Origin: a virus
Virus record (IMG/VR): IMGVR_UViG_3300025617_000124
Location: 1 to 22,626 of that record
Length of the DNA stretch: 22,626 nucleotides
Direction: 5' to 3' (one strand)
The notes beneath the pieces were generated by a model that saw only the letters and a program-made list of their open reading frames with translations, was not told where the DNA came from and searched no databases. This document shows, in pieces, positions 6,213 to 22,596 of this stretch. Made by a program: the position numbers and the translations under genes. The first letter of the stretch is position 1. Each line of letters starts with the position of its first letter.

Positions 6213-6527
6213 TTACTGATTAACGATGTCGTTAATCGAAGACATGTTGATACCCGAAGCCTCTTCAACAATCTTATACACAGTTGGCAAATCAAGATTC
6301 TCTTCTAGTGCAGCCTTGTCTGCAGCTAGCTCTGGATTATATTGCTTCATGGCGATTTGCACACACTCCATTAGCACATCCATAGATTTTGTATTATCGT
6401 CTGCCACCTTGGCGATGCCCTCAAACTTTTTCATAAAGTCCCTGAGCAAAGAAATCTTAAGAGGTCGGACCTTTAGGACGGTACCGTCGATCATTGTGAC
6501 CTGCTCTGTTGTATTGATATCAGTCAT
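6213..6527 (-). CDS. Tail assembly chaperone, short form (G-like)
   Basis: The predicted protein has 104 residues, starting MTDINTTEQVTMIDGTV. I chose this ATG because AAAGGA lies 5 nt upstream; an in-frame ATG two codons earlier would sit directly on that SD. The protein matches the N-terminal domain of the preceding 229-aa gene along nearly its full length: (M)IDGTVLKVRPLKI versus (M)DGTEVYLKPLKI, a conserved FM..F segment, and LDLPTVYKIVEEASGI versus MDMPSTYKVLDITAGI. It lacks the C-terminal domain of that protein. In lambda-like phages the short G and long G-T chaperones come from one locus by frameshifting and coat the tape measure before tail-tube assembly. Here the short form is a separate gene 26 nt ahead of the tape measure. 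The role follows from position and paralogy. Confidence 0.8.
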   Translation of the reverse strand: MTDINTTEQVTMIDGTVLKVRPLKISLLRDFMKKFEGIAKVADDNTKSMDVLMECVQIAMKQYNPELAADKAALEENLDLPTVYKIVEEASGINMSSINDIVNQ

Positions 6528-6562
6528 TTGCATCCTTTCATACACGCATTGTAAGTATATTA

Positions 6563-6571
6563 AGTATACCA
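6563..6571 (-). promoter_or_regulatory. Extended -10 promoter before the short chaperone
   Basis: TGGTATACT reads on the minus strand, identical to the element in front of the long chaperone gene. A second TATACT lies at 6554-6559. Transcription would begin near 6555, giving a leader of about 28 nt with AAAGGA before the ATG at 6527. No clear -35 hexamer is seen. It would let the short chaperone and tape measure be transcribed independently of the long chaperone. Confidence 0.45.
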
Positions 6572-6584
6572 TAAAGAAATAACT

Positions 6585-7274
6585 TTATGTTAGATCTTCA
6601 AAGTCGATCCCCATACCTAAGCCGAATCCAGCCTGCCTAGCTTTTGTGCCTTGGTAAGATTTGATGTCATTGGGATCCTGTGTTTTGCCTCCACTAAATA
6701 CCCTAGCTTTCATGGCCTCCCACTCGTCCTGCTTTCCCTTACCGCTTTGCTGGTCTAAGTCTACTCCTTGGATTGCCGCTAAAAACTTTTTCTCATCGTA
6801 GTCAAGCTCCCTCTTGGAGGAAAGAGTCACCATCAACTCTGGCATTGATAGAGACGATTCTAAATCTTCGTAGTCCTTCCATATTCCCAGTAAAAAGATT
6901 TCTGACTCTAGGGCTGCTAAATCTAAATCGTCCCAGGTGTTAGACTTGCTGTTTTCTGCTTGCTCTTTGACTGACTCATCGAGGTCTTCTTTAACCTTGA
7001 TGCCTGCAGTAATATCTAAAACTTTGTAGGTAGATGGCATGTCCATAAGATCTTCAAATTGGTCCTGGGTTTGTATGCTTTCGCATTGTGATCTTAGGGC
7101 TATGAATGCACAATGTGACAAGACGCTAATAGCCTGGATGTCATCTTTTGCGGCCTTCATGAGATCAAAAGCTTGCATAAAACTTCTCAGGTATTTGATC
7201 TTAAGGGGCTTCAGGTATACCTCGGTTCCGTCCATAAGGTAGATGTGACCATCTTGATATATTTTAGTTGCCAT
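6585..7274 (-). CDS. Tail assembly chaperone, long form (GT-like)
   Basis: The predicted protein has 229 residues and begins MATKIYQDGHIYLMDGTEVY. Residues 1-112 form a small helical domain shared with the next gene. Residues 118-229 form a second domain (LGIWKDYEDLESSLSMPELM, then KFLAAIQGVDLD) that resembles the T-like extension of long tail chaperones. The T-like part is thought to bind the tail tube protein while the G-like part binds the tape measure. No SD precedes the ATG. Instead TGGTATACT ends 6 nt upstream, so the mRNA probably starts at or next to the start codon. A strong hairpin terminator separates it from the major tail gene. I see no obvious slippery heptamer at the domain boundary, so this looks like a stand-alone long chaperone. 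Confidence 0.85.
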   Translation of the reverse strand: MATKIYQDGHIYLMDGTEVYLKPLKIKYLRSFMQAFDLMKAAKDDIQAISVLSHCAFIALRSQCESIQTQDQFEDLMDMPSTYKVLDITAGIKVKEDLDESVKEQAENSKSNTWDDLDLAALESEIFLLGIWKDYEDLESSLSMPELMVTLSSKRELDYDEKKFLAAIQGVDLDQQSGKGKQDEWEAMKARVFSGGKTQDPNDIKSYQGTKARQAGFGLGMGIDFEDLT

Positions 7275-10653: not shown

Positions 10654-11001
10654 TTATACTCCGTATTCCCTAGCTACCTCTTCAGGTGTGGCTAGCCTAA
10701 TGTGGCCTCTTGTTAGCCAACGGTCTGCCTCTGCCTTCTTAACAATGTTATAGCCTTTTTCTACCTTGCCGACACCGTCCCAAACTACATTCTTGGTTGA
10801 GTGTAATGCAACTGTTTCTTTTTCTGCCTTGACTGGTGACTTCTTTAAGTTAATGTCAATTGCTTTATCAGCCCCAGGCACGCTGGATCCAATAATTTCA
10901 TTTGACACTGATGCCTTCGTAGTCTTCTTTCCAGACGTAGCTTTACGCTCTGGAGACTTGATAGTACCAGTTTTAGGCTGAGCTTTCTTCTTGGTTGCCA
11001 T
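10654..11001 (-). CDS. Small Lys-rich head-associated protein, unknown role
   Basis: The predicted protein has 115 residues. Residues 1-65 are low-complexity and very rich in Lys, Ser and Thr (MATKKKAQPKTGTIKSPERK), so probably disordered. The last 45 form a compact domain with KGYNIVKKAEADRWLTRGHI and ATPEEVAREYGV, a style I associate with small genes after the capsid in actinophages, without a known function. It could be a minor capsid or decoration protein, or a DNA-contacting neck factor. It has its own extended -10 promoter and an AGGAGGA SD. Confidence 0.65.
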   Translation of the reverse strand: MATKKKAQPKTGTIKSPERKATSGKKTTKASVSNEIIGSSVPGADKAIDINLKKSPVKAEKETVALHSTKNVVWDGVGKVEKGYNIVKKAEADRWLTRGHIRLATPEEVAREYGV

Positions 11002-11084: not shown

Positions 11085-12215
11085 TTAGGAATCAGCACCT
11101 GCATCCGCGAATGCAATTGCGTCTTCTTCTTCCCACTGGATTCCGAAACGAACGAATACTGTGTACTCGATGGTGTCCTTCTTCGCAACGTACTCACGGT
11201 TGACCGTGATGTCGCGCTGGAAACCCCAGATTCGGTTGCTCGGGAATGTCAAGTCGACATAGCCCTCTGGGTAGTAAGGAACTTCCTGGACATCGATGCC
11301 GAGCACGCGAGTGGTGCGAGCGGTACCGAGTGTCTGGCCATTGCCATCAAGGTAGGCCTGACGGTTTACTTCGGTTCCACCTGTGGTAGGTGTGAATGCC
11401 TCAGCAATTGCGTCTGCCAATGTTCCGTTGTTCTTGAGAATGCCCTGGTATGCATCGGTACCTGCGTAGAACTTAAGGTTGTTCTTAAGTGCGCGGTACT
11501 TGCGGGGGATTGTCAGCAAGATACCCTGCATAACATCCGTAGTCCAAGCATTGTCTGTGACAGTTGTCACATACTCGTGTGCATCTCCATTTGACTTTGT
11601 GCGGTTAACGAACCCGTCCATGATGGACAAGAAGTTACCCGTGGTTCCGTCACCATTAATGGCGAGGTCCTCGATGTCATTTGCGAATGCGTTGGTCATG
11701 AGACGCACCAGGTGGTCTTCAAGGGCTGCGCCCTCTACACCATCTTCAAGTGCCTCTGCAGAAACCTCCCAGTCAAGACGAATTTTCTTTGTAGTCAATT
11801 CGACCTTGCTGAATGTTGCTCCAGTGTTGGTGTAGTCACCAATACCTTGTGATGCCGCACGGATTACACGCTCTCCAACGTTAACTTTCTCAAGCTCCAT
11901 TGTGTTTGCACGCATAGTTACGCGACGACCATCCTTGGCGAGAACAGTGCCATCCCACACGTAGTCGATAAAACGACGTGCTTGCTCGGGACGGAGAATA
12001 CCACTAGCCGCATCACCCGAAGGGTTAACTGCGTTTGGACCAGTAGTTACACCGAACTCGGCGTTAGGAATGTTACCAAGTGTGTTAGCACCAGGATCTG
12101 TTACTCCTCCAATGCCACCAGATGCGAATGCACCCTGAGCCTGAAAGTTACCAGGATTGGGATCACCGTATTCACCAGCTTCTGAAGGCTGGTTCTTATT
12201 GATCTCTTCCGACAT
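11085..12215 (-). CDS. Major capsid protein (HK97 fold)
   Basis: The predicted protein has 376 residues. The first 75 or so are Gly/Asn/Pro-rich and flexible (an N-arm), followed by an HK97-like core with LRPEQARRFIDYVWDGTVL, a long central helix region (LEDHLVRLMTNAFANDIEDL, AINGDG), and C-terminal strands with WGFQRDITVNREY. It forms the icosahedral shell. No separate delta scaffold domain is evident; the scaffold is encoded with the protease just upstream. The SD (AGGAGGTG, 12220-12227) is among the strongest in the window. All 20 arginine codons are CGN, a sign of high expression. A strong terminator follows. Confidence 0.93.
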   Translation of the reverse strand: MSEEINKNQPSEAGEYGDPNPGNFQAQGAFASGGIGGVTDPGANTLGNIPNAEFGVTTGPNAVNPSGDAASGILRPEQARRFIDYVWDGTVLAKDGRRVTMRANTMELEKVNVGERVIRAASQGIGDYTNTGATFSKVELTTKKIRLDWEVSAEALEDGVEGAALEDHLVRLMTNAFANDIEDLAINGDGTTGNFLSIMDGFVNRTKSNGDAHEYVTTVTDNAWTTDVMQGILLTIPRKYRALKNNLKFYAGTDAYQGILKNNGTLADAIAEAFTPTTGGTEVNRQAYLDGNGQTLGTARTTRVLGIDVQEVPYYPEGYVDLTFPSNRIWGFQRDITVNREYVAKKDTIEYTVFVRFGIQWEEEDAIAFADAGADS

Positions 12216-12239: not shown

Positions 12240-12833
12240 TTAATTAAATAAGTCGGCTGTTTTGAGGAAACGACCGCCCCATAGGGATTTTTCAACCATT
12301 TCAGGTTGTTCCTGCACGATCTCGCCCAGATCGCCAGATTTACGGAAAGCTGTATCGGCTTCAACAGCCTCAAACCTCTTTCCGAATTCATCGAAGTCGC
12401 CCTTTGTTGCGGAAATGTCCTGCTTGGCTGCAGTAACTTCCTCGGATACGCCATCAATTGATTTCTTCAATGCATCGACCTCAGCGTGAAGTGACTTCAC
12501 GGTCTCTGCAAGATCGCTAAAGGCTGATGTGATAGTGTCTTTGATATCGGCAACTGCACTTGCAGCTACGTCATCGGACTTAGACACCTCAGCAGCCTCG
12601 ACAACCTCGTCAGCCTTTTCGACTGTCTCGGCGTCTTCAGTAGTCTCGGCCTTTTCGACCTCAACCTCTGCTTCAGCATCGTCGACCTTCTCGACCTCAA
12701 CCTCTTCATCGGCTTTGGTTTCGACGGCGTCTACAACGCTTTCAGCTGCGGCATCTGCCTCTGGAGCGACCTCTTCTGATTTTTCTACTACTTCATCGAC
12801 TGTCTCGATGATTTCTGTGGTTTCATCAGTCAT
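12240..12833 (-). CDS. Nested scaffolding protein (internal in-frame start)
   Basis: An ATG at 12833, in frame with the protease at codon 255, is preceded by CAAAGGAGG with 8 nt between GGAGG and the ATG. The SD is written into the codons for Lys-Glu-Val of the protease. The product would be 197 residues from MTDETTEIIETVDEVV: an acidic repeat stretch, a coiled coil and a C-terminal capsid-binding-like end, which is the scaffold portion alone. This parallels lambda, where the scaffold Nu3 starts inside the C protease gene in the same frame. Independent translation would give many scaffold copies per protease, as assembly requires. The signal is seen directly; its use is inferred. Confidence 0.7.
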   Translation of the reverse strand: MTDETTEIIETVDEVVEKSEEVAPEADAAAESVVDAVETKADEEVEVEKVDDAEAEVEVEKAETTEDAETVEKADEVVEAAEVSKSDDVAASAVADIKDTITSAFSDLAETVKSLHAEVDALKKSIDGVSEEVTAAKQDISATKGDFDEFGKRFEAVEADTAFRKSGDLGEIVQEQPEMVEKSLWGGRFLKTADLFN

Positions 12834-13595
12834 AGGACTAACCTCCTTTGTTATCTTAGAAAGATCAATGCCTTTAGCACTATCAACTAAGAACTTTATT
12901 ACTTCTTTTTTGTCATCGTCTGACTTTTCTACAAATCCAATATTTTTCATTGCCTCGCCACTCTTGGGGCTGGCCATCTCTTCTTCTTGGGAAAGCATAA
13001 CAAGTCCGTTGTCTTGGTCCCAAAATACGTTTTCTACCTCTACGTCCACTGCCTCTCCCTTCAAAATCATCTCTGCATTCTCGCCTTTCTCAACAGACAG
13101 AATGCTAGCAAACTGATTGGCTGGATTGTCTACTAGCGACAATTCTACCAGATCATAATCTTTAATTACACGAATTTGGATGTCGGCTTTTTCGTCATAG
13201 GCGTCATCCCACTTGTTCATTCTACCACCAATTGAGAAACCTGTGTAGGTTCCATCGGTTACTTTTTCCCAAGTGTCTTGAGCACCCTTGGAAACATACG
13301 CGGAAACATACACACCACTGTAGAACTTCTTGGTCTCGGGATCGAAGTATTTATCCTCTTTGAAGGAGACCATTTTACCCACTGCAGAGGGCTGGTGCAT
13401 TTCTCGTATGTTGCCGCGAAACTTGGTGAAAGCTTTCATGGAAGCTTCTGTAGTGACAATGTCGTTTTGCTTGTCTACATTATCTAGGGTAGCGAAACCA
13501 GAGACGATGCGTTTCTCCACATCGACTTTACTAAATGGCATGGACAGGCGAACGCTATCGCCTTCTGTAGCCCAGTGAGCTTTAAACATAGTCAT
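12240..13595 (-). CDS. Prohead protease with C-terminal scaffold domain
   Basis: The predicted protein has 451 residues. Residues 10-170 match the HK97-type prohead serine protease: His67 in REMHQPSAVG, Ser121 in TGFSIGG, and Glu151 in LVELSLVDNPANQ as the likely third catalytic residue. The protease degrades the scaffold and trims capsid subunits during maturation. Residues 255-345 are extremely acidic with EVVEK/EVEVEK-like repeats, then a coiled coil (about 345-420), then a C-terminal segment with SLWGGRFLKTADLFN that probably touches capsid subunits. It sits between portal and capsid as expected. There is no SD; TATAAT lies 9 nt before the first ATG (a second ATG is two codons later). An internal start likely also makes free scaffold. 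Confidence 0.92.
   Translation of the reverse strand: MTMFKAHWATEGDSVRLSMPFSKVDVEKRIVSGFATLDNVDKQNDIVTTEASMKAFTKFRGNIREMHQPSAVGKMVSFKEDKYFDPETKKFYSGVYVSAYVSKGAQDTWEKVTDGTYTGFSIGGRMNKWDDAYDEKADIQIRVIKDYDLVELSLVDNPANQFASILSVEKGENAEMILKGEAVDVEVENVFWDQDNGLVMLSQEEEMASPKSGEAMKNIGFVEKSDDDKKEVIKFLVDSAKGIDLSKITKEVSPMTDETTEIIETVDEVVEKSEEVAPEADAAAESVVDAVETKADEEVEVEKVDDAEAEVEVEKAETTEDAETVEKADEVVEAAEVSKSDDVAASAVADIKDTITSAFSDLAETVKSLHAEVDALKKSIDGVSEEVTAAKQDISATKGDFDEFGKRFEAVEADTAFRKSGDLGEIVQEQPEMVEKSLWGGRFLKTADLFN
12842..12849 (-). promoter_or_regulatory. Internal Shine-Dalgarno for the nested scaffold
   Basis: AAAGGAGG on the minus strand lies inside the protease-scaffold coding sequence, 8 nt before an in-frame ATG. 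It is as strong as the capsid SD and stronger than most true gene starts here, whereas the full-length gene has no SD. Confidence 0.7.
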
Positions 13596-13604
13596 ACTAG
13601 TTAT

Positions 13605-13610
13605 ATTATA
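13605..13610 (-). promoter_or_regulatory. Possible promoter of the protease gene
   Basis: TATAAT on the minus strand lies 9 nt before the first ATG (13595). TTACAA is found 17 bp further upstream, a weak -35 match at ideal spacing. The 65-nt gap after portal is very A/T-rich and holds little else apart from a weak A/T hairpin. The mRNA would have at most a few untranslated bases. Confidence 0.45.
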
Positions 13611-13660: not shown

Positions 13661-15304
13661 CTAATCTGAAGCAGCACCCTCTCCTTGTGCGTTTCTGCCA
13701 CTAACAGTTCCTGGTCCGTCTGCCTGGGCATTGGACCTGTCAGTATCTCTCTGTCTGTTTCTAGCAGAATTGGCTCTGCTATCCGCGGCTTGGCGAGAAG
13801 TCATTTCAAAGGGTTCGTCTCCGTCTTGCCTTTGTGGAAGACCCAAAACTTCTCTCGCCTCATTAGGAACCATGATCTGATTTTTAACATAACGCTCAAG
13901 AATCTGTGACTGAGAAATCTCATCTGTAAGTGTGAGCTCATTAAACTTAAACTCTACAATGTCAGTTTCTTCCCTAATGATTTTGTTAATCATCTTTGCA
14001 AGATTGGTTTGTGCTGGTCTTGCTACCTGCTCCTTGAATGTACGGTCTTGGGCAAGTGCTGCAGCAATAGATGCTGAGTCGCCACCTCCAATTTTTGAGA
14101 GAGGCACCTGGTGTGCAATAAGGATGTCATCTCTATTCTGTTTACGATACTCTTTGAAGGATGCTTCCTGTACCCCGTTTTCTACGGGCTCCATCTTAAA
14201 CTCAACCTTGCTGTTATCGCTATCCGCAGGAAGAGGGATATACAGAGTTCGGTGATTCTGTCCCTTAAGATTATTCTGCAAGAATCGGAACATCTTGTCC
14301 TCGGCATCAGCTGACAGCTGGGCACCCTTAAGAGTTACAACATAACGAGGAACCCCCTTGTTTCCAAAGTAGTCAATGTTGTACTGTGATGCTAGCTGAT
14401 CTCCGTGAAGAGATGTGATTGCGGACATAATGTCTGGCACGCCATAGAATGTATTTAGGGGTGAATACTCTTTGTAGTGAATAATCTCATTAGGTCGTGG
14501 GTCAGTGGTAATTGGGTTCTTGTTGGTTGCCCCGAAGTTTCGGAAGTAAACAACCTTGTTTCCAATAATCTGAACGTATCCGTCACGAAGCCTTCTGGCT
14601 CTCATCGTTGTAGCTGGAATGTGACCGATGTAACCAATCTTGCCTTTAGTTGTTCTACCGATTTCAAGGTATCCGTTTCCAGTAGCCTGTACATCAGTAA
14701 AGAACTTAGTCAGCGTATGAGTAAAGGACTCTTCGTCGTTTAAGCTTTCTAGCCAATCGCGCAGTTCAATCTTTGCTCGCTCGATTCGATTGCGAGCTCT
14801 CTGTACCGCTGCCTCGTCGGGGTTAGTCTCAAGACGCATCATGGTACGCCTCGAGATCTCAAAGTCATAGCCTAGGCCAACAATATTTTCTACCTTTGCG
14901 TCAATGGCAGCGTGGTTAGCAAAAGAAGTATCATAGTAATTTGCAAGCTCATAAAGATTCCATGGTGGCGTAATGACATCGAACATTCCATACCCGTTAC
15001 GAAAAACCTGTCCTGGGTTAATCTCTTTAGATGCTGCCCCGTCTTTTCCAGAAGCGACTGCCAAGGCACTGGTCATGTACTGTCTGGGAGGATCGTTGGC
15101 AACAGAATTGTCTGTACGTGTCTCATATCCATAAGCCATGTTTTTTGACATCCTGGTTGCACGGCGTTTAAAGTTAGTGTCTATCCCACTAAGACTCTTA
15201 ATATCGTCCCAGGACTTGTTAAATGGATCCTGCTGCTTAAACAGGTCAGCTTGCTCTTCAATCTCGTCAATGCGTGCACCAACAGTCCAGCTTTGCTCTG
15301 ACAT
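13661..15304 (-). CDS. Portal protein
   Basis: The predicted protein has 547 residues and forms the dodecameric ring at one capsid vertex through which DNA enters and leaves. It matches the PBSX/HK97-type portal family: an N-terminal clip/wing region with VFRNGYGMFDVITPPWNLYE, a stem region with NTFYGVPDIMSAITSLHGDQ, and a C-terminal crown with NQIMVPNEAREVLGLPQRQD. The last 50 residues are Asp/Asn/Arg/Gly-rich and probably disordered. The ATG overlaps the previous stop (TAATG) with GAGGGG just upstream, so translation is coupled to the 126-aa gene. Length is typical for the family. Confidence 0.93.
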   Translation of the reverse strand: MSEQSWTVGARIDEIEEQADLFKQQDPFNKSWDDIKSLSGIDTNFKRRATRMSKNMAYGYETRTDNSVANDPPRQYMTSALAVASGKDGAASKEINPGQVFRNGYGMFDVITPPWNLYELANYYDTSFANHAAIDAKVENIVGLGYDFEISRRTMMRLETNPDEAAVQRARNRIERAKIELRDWLESLNDEESFTHTLTKFFTDVQATGNGYLEIGRTTKGKIGYIGHIPATTMRARRLRDGYVQIIGNKVVYFRNFGATNKNPITTDPRPNEIIHYKEYSPLNTFYGVPDIMSAITSLHGDQLASQYNIDYFGNKGVPRYVVTLKGAQLSADAEDKMFRFLQNNLKGQNHRTLYIPLPADSDNSKVEFKMEPVENGVQEASFKEYRKQNRDDILIAHQVPLSKIGGGDSASIAAALAQDRTFKEQVARPAQTNLAKMINKIIREETDIVEFKFNELTLTDEISQSQILERYVKNQIMVPNEAREVLGLPQRQDGDEPFEMTSRQAADSRANSARNRQRDTDRSNAQADGPGTVSGRNAQGEGAASD

Positions 15305-19109: not shown

Positions 19110-20753
19110 CTACTTATTGTGTACAAGATAGCCACCTGCAACAAACCAGTCTTGAGGCTCACATCCAACAAGATACGTCATCTCTGGTTCATCACCAGAT
19201 GATATGGTGTTTACGACTTCCTCGCCGTACTCCCCAGAGTCAGAGACTGTAATTAGAGTGTCCCCTACTTCTACGTCAGAACAAGGAACAATTCTATAAA
19301 TTCCGTCTCTCTTGATATATATGGTTTGAGTGAAGGAAAACTTCTTGTCTTCCTTGTCGTTAAAATATAAGCAAATAGACATCTTTGGCCCCAAGTATGT
19401 AACCTCAGTCTCGGCCTGTTCCATAAAGGTTAGCGATTCCGAAGACCACAAGAACATAGATTCTTTAGAGTCCCCTGGGTCGCTAGAGGTCATCTCGCTC
19501 AGTGTTGGAACTACTGCCTTATCTCCAAGAACTATGTCCTTGGCTGGTATTTCACCTCTGGCTGTCCTAACCAACGTGTCCTCATGGATGCACCACCTAT
19601 GGAACCGTGGGAAGAACGGAGGGAAATGAGGAGGGAAATGAGGAGGGAAATGAGGAGGGAAGTGCGGAAAGAAAGGAAAGAAAGGGAAAAACGGTGGGAA
19701 GTGCGGCGGGAAGTGAGGGAAGAAGGGAAAGAAGGGAGGGAAGTGTGGTGGGAAGTGTGGTGGGAAATGAGGAGGAAAGTGAGGGAAGAATGGAAAGAAC
19801 GGAAAAAATGGGGGAAGAGTTGTTACGGTTCCAGACCAGTCTGACCATTCTCCTGGCCCAATCTCGTTTACAGCTCTTACTCGGTATGCCTGAGAAGTGT
19901 TTGGCTCTTGGCGAAGTGCAACGGCAAGATCAGAGGTGGTTCCAGTTTTCTTTTCTGCATCTGGCAACGTCTCGTCAGACTCGTACTCATAATAAAGTAT
20001 TGGGCTGCCGTTATCGCTCACTGGTTTCCATTGCAGAATGTCTTGCAAACTTTGTGTTGATGATCCTGGAGTCTCTGGCTTAGACGGCACAGACGGACTG
20101 TTGTACCCAGCCCTTGGTGCTACTGGGTAGTAGATGACTACAATTCCAGGCCTTCCAGGCAGGCCAGCGACGCCATCCGCTTCTGATGATAGGGAATTCT
20201 CACCTAAACCACCAGAACCAAAACTAACGTGAGACAGTGGCGGCACTTCTGTTGTGTCCCCATTGGGACCATTAAGGGCATAGTCAACCTGGAGCTGTCC
20301 AATAGAAATTGATGTTCCAGATGTAACAGTATTCAGACTTCCATAGGGTCCGCCAGAGCCTCCGTCTGCAATGATCGTTCCAAAAGAGCTGTCTCCGCCA
20401 GCTAGACCAGCATCTGATTCCTGGGATGCCCCGCCTACACCGACAGTGATTGGTATGTTTATTTCTTCTAAAAAGTGATAAGTTCCTTGCTGAACAGATC
20501 CAGCAGTTCCTCCACCACCTGGGCTAGACGCGGAGCTTGCACCAGCACCACCACCACCGCCGCCGATGACAATATAATTTACTTCTGGGTTTGAGCCAAA
20601 CCTATCGAGGGTAAAGCCCTCTGTGCTGTCTGGATAAAAATAGTGTACCTTATGATGAACACTGTTTATCATAGCGTCTACTACATGACCACCCGAAGCC
20701 TCTATGGCTTCGAACTCATGGAAGGCCCCACGGCCACGCAAACGATATGACAT
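19110..20753 (-). CDS. Modular tail-surface protein: Gly-rich domain, FN3, Phe/Pro/His repeat, Hint
   Basis: The predicted protein has 547 residues. Residues about 50-215 are a glycine-rich domain (runs such as GGGGGAGASSASSPGGGG) common in phage tail and adhesin proteins. Residues about 220-312 are a fibronectin type III domain (PETPGSSTQS, AYRVRAVNEIGPGEWSDWSG). Residues 314-383 are a Phe/Pro/His repeat. From Cys388 to the end is a Hint domain: block A CIHEDTLVRTARGEIPAKDI, then LGD, and a C-terminal DWFVAGGYLVHNK. The usual TxxH of block B seems to read TQTI, and the protein ends His545-Asn546-Lys547 without a C-extein. Hint domains cleave proteins at their N-terminal Cys or splice them. 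A self-processed adhesin-like tail tip protein is plausible. The start is set by TGATAAAAT 6 nt upstream, with no SD. Confidence 0.8.
   Translation of the reverse strand: MSYRLRGRGAFHEFEAIEASGGHVVDAMINSVHHKVHYFYPDSTEGFTLDRFGSNPEVNYIVIGGGGGGAGASSASSPGGGGTAGSVQQGTYHFLEEINIPITVGVGGASQESDAGLAGGDSSFGTIIADGGSGGPYGSLNTVTSGTSISIGQLQVDYALNGPNGDTTEVPPLSHVSFGSGGLGENSLSSEADGVAGLPGRPGIVVIYYPVAPRAGYNSPSVPSKPETPGSSTQSLQDILQWKPVSDNGSPILYYEYESDETLPDAEKKTGTTSDLAVALRQEPNTSQAYRVRAVNEIGPGEWSDWSGTVTTLPPFFPFFPFFPHFPPHFPPHFPPHFPPFFPFFPHFPPHFPPFFPFFPFFPHFPPHFPPHFPPHFPPFFPRFHRWCIHEDTLVRTARGEIPAKDIVLGDKAVVPTLSEMTSSDPGDSKESMFLWSSESLTFMEQAETEVTYLGPKMSICLYFNDKEDKKFSFTQTIYIKRDGIYRIVPCSDVEVGDTLITVSDSGEYGEEVVNTISSGDEPEMTYLVGCEPQDWFVAGGYLVHNK
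19608..19814 (-). repeat. Phe/Pro/His low-complexity repeat tract (FFP, HFPP units)
   Basis: About 69 residues consist only of Phe, Pro and His in FFP and HFPP units, such as FPPHFPPHFPP. The plus strand is nearly all purine with GGGAA(A/G) repeats. The tract joins FN3 to the Hint domain. Two similar blocks (HFPP x4 then FFPFFP) suggest internal duplication by slippage. The tract should be prone to length change. Confidence 0.9.
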
Positions 20754-20790: not shown

Positions 20791-21291
20791 AAAAAACATA
20801 ACTATAGCATATCTCTCTCCACTAAGGACATGCCTAACTTTATGGGTATGCTCAAGATCCCCTCTAAAAAATACTAAGTCCCCGATGTGCGGCTGCACGT
20901 CTAGCTTATGCTGGGGAAAAACAATCTCTCCCCCAGTAAAGTCCACGCCGTACTCAGATAGATAAACAAGAGCTGAAAACTCTCTGTTTGTTTTGGCTGG
21001 ATCTTCGTGGGGAGTTCCGTCTAAATTATACATGTCCGAGTGCAAACCATTGAAGGCACCCTTGGCTAACTTTACGACACCAGCTTCATAGTCACTAATA
21101 ATAACATCGTAGTGTTTTTCTATTTCAAGTCTTGCCATAGCAACTGCTGCAAGAACTTCTGGGAGAGGTTCGCCAAATGACTCAAAGAAACCTGGCCGAT
21201 GATCGGACTCAACCAGTATCTTTGAGTAATATTCTCTAATTTCAGAGGCCTTAGTATCTGAGAATAGCCTCTCTTTAATCTGAACTGACAT
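20779..21291 (-). CDS. 2-oxoglutarate/Fe(II) oxygenase (prolyl-4-hydroxylase type)
   Basis: The predicted protein has 170 residues in a compact double-stranded beta-helix. Metal ligands are His84 and Asp86 (GLHSDMYNLDG) and a distal His150; Arg160 (SGERYAIVMFF) should bind the 2-oxoglutarate carboxylate. Such enzymes couple oxidative decarboxylation of 2-oxoglutarate to hydroxylation of a protein or small molecule. Its substrate is unknown. It lies just upstream of and co-directional with the modular tail protein gene. There is no SD; TGTTATAAT ends 6 nt before the ATG. It is only distantly related to the two plus-strand oxygenases: its metal motif reads HSD and its N-terminal region is shorter. 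Oxygenases of this type are common accessory genes in aquatic phages. Confidence 0.85.
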   Translation of the reverse strand: MSVQIKERLFSDTKASEIREYYSKILVESDHRPGFFESFGEPLPEVLAAVAMARLEIEKHYDVIISDYEAGVVKLAKGAFNGLHSDMYNLDGTPHEDPAKTNREFSALVYLSEYGVDFTGGEIVFPQHKLDVQPHIGDLVFFRGDLEHTHKVRHVLSGERYAIVMFFSKQ

Positions 21292-21297
21292 CCCTAT

Positions 21298-21306
21298 ATT
21301 ATAACA
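21298..21306 (-). promoter_or_regulatory. Divergent extended -10 promoter, minus side
   Basis: TGTTATAAT on the minus strand, 6 nt before the ATG at 21291, is the same nonamer as the plus-side promoter in the same 44-nt gap. Neither gene has an SD. Confidence 0.6.
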
Positions 21307-21310
21307 GAAA

Positions 21311-21318
21311 GGGGCCCC
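21311..21318. other. GGGGCCCC palindrome between divergent promoters
   Basis: A perfect 8-bp palindrome lies between two inverted copies of TGTTATAAT (4 nt from one arm, 2 nt from the other). It is a sharply GC-rich block in an otherwise A/T-rich gap. It could be an operator shared by both promoters, but nothing shows binding. Confidence 0.4.
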
Positions 21319-21320
21319 TA

Positions 21321-21329
21321 TGTTATAAT
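21321..21329 (+). promoter_or_regulatory. Divergent extended -10 promoter, plus side
   Basis: TGTTATAAT on the plus strand is followed by exactly 6 nt and the ATG at 21336; no SD is present. It should drive the tandem oxygenase pair as a leaderless transcript. Confidence 0.6.
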
Positions 21330-21335
21330 TATTTT

Positions 21336-21974
21336 ATGAATAAACTAGAAAGCAAGCTAGTTCAGCTGGGCTACAGCTATGAAGAAGTAGCTAGAGGTGT
21401 GTACCTGGTTAGTGACTTTTTAAATGATCAAGAAGTCAGTGAAGTTTTGGATATTATCAGCAAGGCCAGCGAAGAGGACTGGCAAACACACTATATGCAG
21501 GGCGTAAAGGACTTGGCAAATAGAAAGTATGGCAGAACAGATGTTGACAATCTTGTAAAAGAGGGCTTGATCGAAATTACAACACACTGGATAGACAAGA
21601 ATCTAGGTCTTCCACATTCAGTATCTGAGCCAATCTCTGAGAGAATTCAAAAAATCATATCTTTTGATGAGGAGATAGCCTTCGATGGGGTTGGGACCAT
21701 CCAACGTCAATATGAAGGCGAACCTTTGGTAGAGCATGTAGATAACCACTCAGACCCAATGATTGAATATGCAGTAATTATGTATATTAATGACGACTAT
21801 AATGCAGGTGAGCTATTTTTTGGTAGGCTTGGACTAGAGATTGTTCCGCCCGCAAAATCTATGATCATATTCCCCAGTGGAGAAGACTACTTACACGGAG
21901 TTAAACCTCCTGCTGCTGGTCCTCAGCGATATGTGTTGCCCTCGTTTGTCAGAAGGCGTAAAGTTGAGTATTAA
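21336..21974 (+). CDS. 2-oxoglutarate/Fe(II) oxygenase, first tandem copy
   Basis: The predicted protein has 212 residues. The catalytic half carries His134 and Asp136 (EHVDNHSDP), distal His187 (YLHGVKPP) and Arg198 (GPQRYVLPSF), the iron and 2-oxoglutarate ligands of prolyl-hydroxylase-like dioxygenases. The N-terminal 110 residues are helical and shared with the next gene (LGYSYEEVARGVYLV; YGRTDVDNLVKEGLIE). The substrate is not known. It is one of the few plus-strand genes and starts a leaderless-type transcript. The next gene overlaps its end by 11 nt, so the pair forms an operon. Confidence 0.85.
   Translation: MNKLESKLVQLGYSYEEVARGVYLVSDFLNDQEVSEVLDIISKASEEDWQTHYMQGVKDLANRKYGRTDVDNLVKEGLIEITTHWIDKNLGLPHSVSEPISERIQKIISFDEEIAFDGVGTIQRQYEGEPLVEHVDNHSDPMIEYAVIMYINDDYNAGELFFGRLGLEIVPPAKSMIIFPSGEDYLHGVKPPAAGPQRYVLPSFVRRRKVEY
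21951..21956 (+). promoter_or_regulatory. Shine-Dalgarno deciding a TTG start
   Basis: AGAAGG lies 7 nt before TTG 21964. It supports that TTG over upstream in-frame codons and gives a protein aligning end to end with its paralogue. Confidence 0.55.
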
Positions 21975-22596
21975 GCCATTAGAAGATAGGCTACACAAGC
22001 TTGGGTATAGCTTCAGCGAGCTTGCAGAATCTGTATATATAGTTTATGACGTTTACGGCAAGGAAGATCTTGCACCTGTATTAAACATTATAGAAAACGC
22101 CACCCAAGAAGACTGGGAGCACGACTATAGGCAAAGCCAGATAGGTCTCGCTAAAAAGAGATATGGTAGGGAAGATTTGGATAACTTGCTTGCAGAAGGG
22201 CTTATGGAGTTTACAGATGACTGGTACGACAAGGCAATATCAATTCCAGAAGGTATCACGGCGAAGCTATCTATGAAGATAGAAATGATTTTTGCTTTTA
22301 ACTATAAGCTTATTACTGGAAGAATGAACACCATTCAAAGACAGTATGAGGGAAGCCCCTTAGTGGCTCATGTGGATACAGATGGAGACCCATCGATTGC
22401 ATATGCTGCGATTGGTTATATAAATGATGACTACTCTGACGGAGAGCTGTTTTTCTCTGAACTTAATCTAGAAGTAAAACCGCGTGCAGGATCTTTAGTA
22501 ATCTTCCCTGGCTCTTCCGAATATCGTCACGGAGTGAAGGCACCAGGTCCTGGTAAATCCAGATATGCACTACCAACCTTTGTCTTTAACAGCTAG
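21964..22596 (+). CDS. 2-oxoglutarate/Fe(II) oxygenase, second tandem copy (TTG start)
   Basis: The predicted protein has 210 residues. I start it at TTG 21964 because AGAAGG lies 7 nt upstream and the product (M)SIKPLEDRLHKLGYSFSEL then aligns with the N-terminus of the preceding gene (LESKLVQLGYSYEEV) at nearly the same length. An ATG at 21877 is in frame but lies deep inside the previous gene. Ligands are His136 and Asp138 (AHVDTDGDP), His189 (YRHGVKAP) and Arg200. Conserved blocks with the first copy include NTIQRQYEG and YINDDY, so this is a tandem duplication that has diverged. Both copies keep a full catalytic set and are probably active, perhaps on different substrates. Confidence 0.82.
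   Translation: MSIKPLEDRLHKLGYSFSELAESVYIVYDVYGKEDLAPVLNIIENATQEDWEHDYRQSQIGLAKKRYGREDLDNLLAEGLMEFTDDWYDKAISIPEGITAKLSMKIEMIFAFNYKLITGRMNTIQRQYEGSPLVAHVDTDGDPSIAYAAIGYINDDYSDGELFFSELNLEVKPRAGSLVIFPGSSEYRHGVKAPGPGKSRYALPTFVFNS

Follow-up and report, generated by a model that had tools for sequence, protein, structure and literature searches.

The window, a virus record of 22,626 bases from IMG/VR, carries on its minus strand an open reading frame of 451 codons between a portal gene and a major capsid protein gene. Its product matches the head maturation protease family phrog_9427 over residues 2–448 (E 3.8e-118), and a second potential translation start, led by a Shine–Dalgarno (SD) sequence, lies in frame inside it. 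The locus contains the following features, in the order of transcription.

13661–15304, minus strand: portal gene, the upstream neighbour (Pfam Phage_portal, E 4e-31).
13605–13610, minus strand: putative promoter −10 box, TATAAT, with the full-length ATG 9 nt downstream; conserved in the upstream regions of the window clade.
12240–13595, minus strand: full-length protease-scaffold gene (the fusion); open reading frame of 451 aa with the phrog_9427 match.
12834–13595, minus strand: protease part, residues 1–254, predicted S78-type prohead protease (Pfam, fold match, invariant H67 and S121).
12868–12881, minus strand: near-invariant 14-nt block AGTGCTAAAGGCAT; its codons 239–242 are among the most codon-conserved windows, with few changes in window-clade genes.
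12842–12849, minus strand: internal SD, AAAGGAGG; GG[AG]GG plus a start is kept in 309 of 311 informative relatives, which are akin to each other.
12834–12847, minus strand: AGGA...TCCT mini-hairpin over the SD, a possible tuning element restricted to the window clade (local fold −4.0 kcal/mol).
12831–12833, minus strand: internal start codon ATG, codon 255 of 451; ATG in 49 of 49 non-redundant window-clade genes, ATG or GTG in other clades.
12240–12833, minus strand: putative nested scaffold gene, 197 aa, with the frame and stop of the fusion (in-frame ATG, pI 4.05, predicted disorder followed by long helices, Lys-Ser enrichment).
11085–12215, minus strand: major capsid protein gene, the downstream neighbour, with its own SD, TTAGGAGGTG (phrog_1623 and phrog_10, major head protein).

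The first-pass annotation of this DNA had read the locus as a scaffold gene nested in frame within a protease gene, and comparison of relatives supports this reading. The SD that it had seen upstream of codon 255, an in-frame ATG, at a spacing of 8 nt is present: AAAGGAGG at 12849–12842 is separated by the spacer TTAGTCCT from the ATG at 12833, and the product predicted from that ATG is 197 aa long and begins MTDETTE. As it had also stated, no SD lies upstream of the full-length ATG at 13595, and this absence is conserved in relatives. The order portal, protease, capsid protein is that of the phages Gilson, NootNoot, Wakanda, Faust and Tomas, minus their small post-portal gene; judged by gene order and by its phrog_9427 protease, the capsid module would be classed as Stanwilliamsviridae-like. 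The isolated relatives are Streptomyces phages of the Stanwilliamsviridae and Rhodococcus phages, in which the gene is annotated merely as a capsid or head maturation protease. Hundreds of uncultured relatives are found in IMG/VR, and one lies in an Actinomycetota genome bin.

Peptidase_S78_2/S78 spans residues 21–173 of the 451-aa protein. Searched against Pfam, residues 1–254 score 31.7 bits for S78_2 (cut-off 24) and 30.6 bits for S78 (cut-off 21), both above the curated gathering score, and give only these two families, with no match to an S49/ClpP-like domain. A fold model of the protease alone, built from 47 relatives and of moderate confidence (pLDDT 72), predicts a beta-rich protease domain at about residues 14–223 and a helix at 229–240. 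The top three PDB matches of this model, and the sole ones at E ≤ 0.001, are three chains of the T4 gp21 capsid protease (5jbl; E 1.3e-4 to 2.5e-4), and its matches in a viral structure library are prohead proteases. A model of the whole fusion was also tried as a query and discarded as too poor (pLDDT 53, no PDB match at E ≤ 0.001). His67 and Ser121, the latter in GFSIGG, are invariant in 47/47 sequences, and we take them to be the candidate catalytic His and Ser of an S78 prohead protease. By domain match and predicted fold, the protease part is assigned to the S78 prohead proteases (HK97/XkdF type), with an assemblin-like capsid-protease fold. The lambda C protein is a ClpP/SppA-like protease of the S49 family, and by its Pfam matches the window gene is not a member of that family; the HK97-type rather than lambda-type protease proposed from the first inspection therefore stands. 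The Pfam span, the fold models and the comparison of relatives likewise agree with the earlier placement of the internal start at the boundary between the protease and scaffold parts.

Downstream of this boundary the character of the protein changes. The 197-aa part has a pI of 4.05, and the fold models place disorder after the helix at 229–240 and then long helices at 341–380 and 386–419. Its C-terminus is conserved and is common to the Streptomyces phages (WGGRFL; SLWGGRFLKTADLFN). A sequence search of solved structures returned coiled-coil matches to unrelated proteins only, and these were set aside. Window-clade scaffolds contain 7.1 Lys-Ser pairs each, against 1.3 expected from shuffles, and lake-clade scaffolds 3.3 against 1.3, while the enrichment is absent from the small sample of Boydwoodruffvirinae scaffolds. 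In HK97, cleavage takes place at K103/S104 (PMC10275583), and by analogy the Lys-Ser pairs may be candidate sites at which the protease cleaves the scaffold.

The capsid proteins of these phages bear on the need for such a part. Those of Gilson, NootNoot and Trina have only some two dozen residues ahead of the conserved N-arm and that of locus L173 somewhat more, so that about 20–45 residues precede the N-arm in the relatives; the window capsid protein has a longer N-terminus of about 75 residues, rich in Gly, Asn and Pro. No HK97-type delta domain of about 100 residues was found on the relatives' capsid proteins, and a separate scaffold is therefore expected. The first 45 kb of Gilson, within which the head and tail genes lie, contain no annotated scaffold gene.

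The internal start is conserved far beyond the window clade. GG[AG]GG followed by ATG or GTG occurs at the same boundary in 309 of 311 informative loci, which reduce to 104 distinct 27-base initiation regions with protein identity down to about 33%, include some contigs present more than once and, being akin to each other, do not represent independent events. The first search set had AGGAGG, an 8-nt spacer and ATG in 80/80 relatives, and the next set had the same arrangement in all but L155, in which the Pro codon is lost and the spacer shortened to 5 nt with the SD and ATG kept. Apart from that locus, the start lies 7–10 nt downstream of the SD throughout the 309, the Boydwoodruffvirinae (a subfamily of Streptomyces phages) and the Trina group having the rather long spacing of 10 nt; in some phages it is GTG. 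Homologues without the internal SD or start, which would have counted against the nested gene, were looked for, and two of the 311 were found. L261 keeps the SD and has AGG in place of ATG. L250 was considered as a natural split, with a protease stop followed by a scaffold ATG, and was rejected: it departs from L240 at five positions only, every one of them within the final 91 bases, where the contig ends, and because they cluster there we treat it as a sequence error.

Chance is a poor explanation for this arrangement. Among the 4,841 ORF-internal codons of the window, the codon-255 site is the only internal GGAGG with a start at a spacing of 5–10 nt. In 101,921 codons of the relatives' flanking open reading frames there are 13 such sites, two of them in truncated copies of the protease-scaffold gene itself, or about 1.3e-4 per codon; the expectation for a 40-codon linker is about 0.005.

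It could be argued that the fusion is the only product, that it cuts itself near the boundary to release the scaffold, and that the SD-like string simply follows from the linker peptide. Self-cleavage is known for protease-scaffold proteins of the P2 gpO type, protease and scaffold share one open frame in every sound relative, and the scaffold part is rich in Lys-Ser, the HK97 cleavage pair. However, the boundary peptide is not what is conserved. It reads KEVSP, EEVSP, KEEDP, EGGNK, KGGAEQ or EGGVIV, whereas GGAGG plus a start is retained in two codon phases, phase 2 (xxG GAG Gxx) in 160 loci and phase 0 (GGA GGT) in 149. The residues encoded over the SD are accordingly K-E-V/A/D/E in the window clade and E/K/Q-G-G in the Stanwilliamsviridae Streptomyces phages, Rhodococcus phage Trina and the lake-phage clade. 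The corresponding boundaries are GAAGGAGGTGTAATC-GTG or GGGAGGTGCAGAACAA-ATG/GTG in the Streptomyces phages, GAAGGAGGTCAGTCAAAT-ATG in Trina and GAAGGAGGTAACAAA-ATG in the lake clade, where some genes have the synonymous GGG for GGA, with anti-SD pairing kept through G-U. Since the SD occurs in two phases and the encoded residues differ by clade, it is the RNA signal that is conserved and not the peptide. Biased codons add to this: codon 251 is GAG in 49/49 window-clade genes (clade usage 40%); at codon 250, the 44 Lys codons are all AAG and the other 5 genes have GAG, so that changes from K to E preserve AG-GAGG. The SD codons are thus kept beyond amino-acid need, the outcome to be expected of a working signal in an alignment of homologues. 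Moreover, were the fusion the single product, there would be no need for a correctly spaced start codon, and we consider that explanation very improbable.

Still less credence attaches to a pausing role for the SD-like string, whereby slowed translation would give the protease domain time to fold ahead of the scaffold part. Its position at the domain boundary would suit that role, but a pause requires no in-frame ATG or GTG 7–10 nt downstream, and one is present in 309/311 loci (one of them at 5 nt).

Two results set bounds on these arguments. Sliding-window codon conservation does not single out the SD, which ranks 31–33 of 448 windows; codons 239–242, 357–360 and 436–445 are islands scoring above it, and in the scaffold part conservation above that of the SD region takes in codons 357–362 and 436–450 (about 12510–12527 and 12246–12290). 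Codon bias alone is therefore no proof, and the case rests on position, codon phase and the start codon. In addition, a strong internal SD was not found in the distant S78 protease-plus-extension genes of Herbaspirillum (L174) and Ktedonobacterales (L175); the trait therefore marks the phrog_9427-type family rather than S78 proteases at large. Our literature search, with most subscription journals outside its scope, found no earlier report of an internal start in this family.

The full-length start is preceded by a signal of another kind. A hexamer matching TATAAT in at least five of six positions and ending 5–11 nt before the ATG is found in 90/90 distinct window-clade upstream regions, against 23.6 expected from shuffles, with a modal distance of 9 nt and usual values of 8–10; a 4-nt SD-like string is present in just 11 of the 90. 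The pattern recurs in the lake clade (40/44) and, as TANNNT, in 9/9 Streptomyces phages. TA-like boxes about 10–12 bp upstream of the start mark leaderless genes, which are common in Actinobacteria (PMC3160421). On account of the box position, the fusion mRNA is probably nearly leaderless, with a leader of about 3 nt at the 9-nt distance.

Box positions touch other starts as well. The annotated protease starts of Tomas (L086 3995), StarPlatinum (L088 2995) and Trina (L087 2971) are probably two to four codons too early; from the position of the TANNNT box, a leaderless start would be Met3 in Tomas and StarPlatinum and about Met5 in Trina. In the window, a TATAAT-like box of the leaderless type precedes the ATG by exactly 6 nt in the genes at 20753, 21291, 21336 and 7274, and those at 11001 and 12215 have a −10-like box 16–17 nt before the ATG together with an SD. 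Two promoter-to-start spacings, 6 nt and 16–17 nt, are therefore seen within one phage.

The RNA around the internal start may also be structured. Its consensus fold lies well below that of column shuffles (z −8.1), and window-clade SDs are predicted to be partly paired, with a conserved TCCT immediately upstream of the ATG as the partner. This TCCT occurs in 53 of the 63 distinct initiation regions of that clade, and Pro254 is encoded by CCT in 47/48 genes, against a usage of 25%, the usual Pro codon being CCA. No covariation was found for the AGGA-TCCT pairing, the pairs of which scarcely vary, and the hairpin is absent outside the window clade. About 35–48 nt upstream of the internal start, the AGTGCTAAAGGCAT block is possibly an RNA control site that could fold into a small hairpin.

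Part of this sequence could instead be read as an internal promoter which, in place of or besides internal ribosome entry, would yield a short scaffold mRNA, as for UL26.5. In 41 of 49 window-clade genes, where codon resampling predicts 16.9, a hexamer resembling TAAGAT is found 19 nt upstream of the internal ATG, and the leadered genes of the window have their −10-like boxes at 16–17 nt. However, the hexamer is weak, matching TATAAT in four of six positions, the other 8 of 49 genes have TGAGAT there, and outside the window clade, where the SD is retained, it is not seen at this position. Such a promoter, which we regard as unlikely but less so than either a single product or a pause, would leave the scaffold SD-started and would modify the two-start model rather than replace it.

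We therefore favour, with a probability of about 0.88, the reading that one gene encodes two co-terminal proteins through two translation starts, a near-leaderless start for a low-copy fusion and an internal SD for abundant free scaffold. Comparative support for the internal start is unusually strong: the start signals, their retention beyond amino-acid need, the domain boundary and the lack of a delta domain in the relatives' capsid proteins are seen in the sequences themselves. That the phage makes both products, in what ratio and to what end, is inferred from these signals, and a low-copy fusion beside a high-copy scaffold is plausible. The promoter with its −10 box about 9 nt before the first ATG would give an mRNA with almost no leader and no SD, from which the 451-aa protease-scaffold fusion would be translated at a low level. 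The internal SD, which is strong, and the ATG at codon 255 would direct abundant synthesis of the 197-aa scaffold from that mRNA and from any read-through transcript of the upstream genes. The scaffold would guide assembly of the capsid protein, probably via its conserved C-terminus SLWGGRFLKTADLFN, and the fusion would co-assemble by the common scaffold part, so that a few protease molecules enter the prohead. Once inside, the protease would degrade the scaffold, perhaps at many Lys-Ser sites. The two-start model predicts that read-through transcripts from the portal side, on which the full-length start would not be usable, yield scaffold only.

A more general proposition, to which we would give even odds, is that the protease dose is set by two competing initiation modes, the leaderless fusion start acting on own-promoter transcripts only and the SD-led scaffold start on every transcript, so that upstream read-through would raise scaffold and not protease. 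The arrangement would then be a prokaryotic counterpart of UL26/UL26.5 on a homologous protease, general to the phage family and its uncultured relatives.

Nested scaffolds of this design have precedents. In lambda C/Nu3, the scaffold lies in frame in the 3' part of the protease gene and has an internal start (Shaw and Murialdo 1980, as cited in PMC8508860). The window gene shares that layout but differs in its S78 protease of the HK97/T4 type and its apparently near-leaderless full-length start, and no sequence relation is claimed. In herpesviruses, UL26/UL26.5 places an in-frame, co-terminal scaffold inside the protease gene (PMC4498786), and UL26.5 is transcribed as a unit of its own from an internal promoter (Liu and Roizman 1991, as cited in PMC4498786), whereas the signal conserved throughout the phage relatives is the internal SD. 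Homology between the herpesvirus protease and the prohead proteases of phages has been described (Cheng et al. 2004, as cited in PMC10052503). Because the window protease belongs to the type that shares ancestry with herpesvirus assemblin, the herpesvirus system is the closer parallel in protease and lambda the closer in mechanism. The window gene would thus represent the lambda and herpesvirus nested layout on an HK97/T4-type protease with a different pair of start signals, and, given the homology of the proteases, this layout is either old in the lineage or arose more than once.

HK97 itself resembles the window in that its S78-type protease (gp4) adjoins the capsid gene and in its K103/S104 pair, which recalls the scaffold Lys-Ser sites. 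Its scaffold, however, is the N-terminal 103 residues of the gp5 capsid protein, the delta domain (PMC10275583), whereas the relatives studied here have short capsid N-termini. The Herelleviridae, represented by Staphylococcus phage 812 and Bacillus phage Troll, share the order portal, prohead protease, acidic coiled protein and capsid protein, but in them the protease and the acidic protein, the latter of about 310 aa and pI 4.4–4.5, are encoded apart, each behind an SD of its own; this comparison is one of gene order and character. The acidic genes, annotated as hypothetical in 812 and Troll (L322 2600–3550 and L323 2257–3189), resemble the nested scaffold in that they encode numerous Lys-Ser pairs (VEKS, VSKS).

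The nested gene would supply the scaffold that is apparently missing from the Stanwilliamsviridae and from many uncultured phages, in which the gene carries only the label "capsid maturation protease"; it also gives annotation a precise second start. In addition, the locus provides a test case for leaderless and SD-led starts on one mRNA setting a protein ratio, in phages with culturable laboratory hosts.

Several other loci in the window deserve mention. Between two 2OG-Fe(II) oxygenase genes, 21291–21336 forms a 44-base divergent promoter region with the palindrome GGGGCCCC and leaderless-type boxes on both sides; farther on, at about 21937–22593, comes a third 2OG-Fe(II) oxygenase gene. The minus-strand gene at 19110–20753 encodes a Gly-rich virion-like protein with FPPHFPP repeats, for which Pfam gives only Gly_rich_2; by eye, its C-terminal stretch, ending VHNK, has a likeness to Hint/intein-type domains. 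At the tail assembly chaperone position, 6213–7274 on the minus strand, lie two adjoining genes with similar N-termini, which are apparently paralogues.
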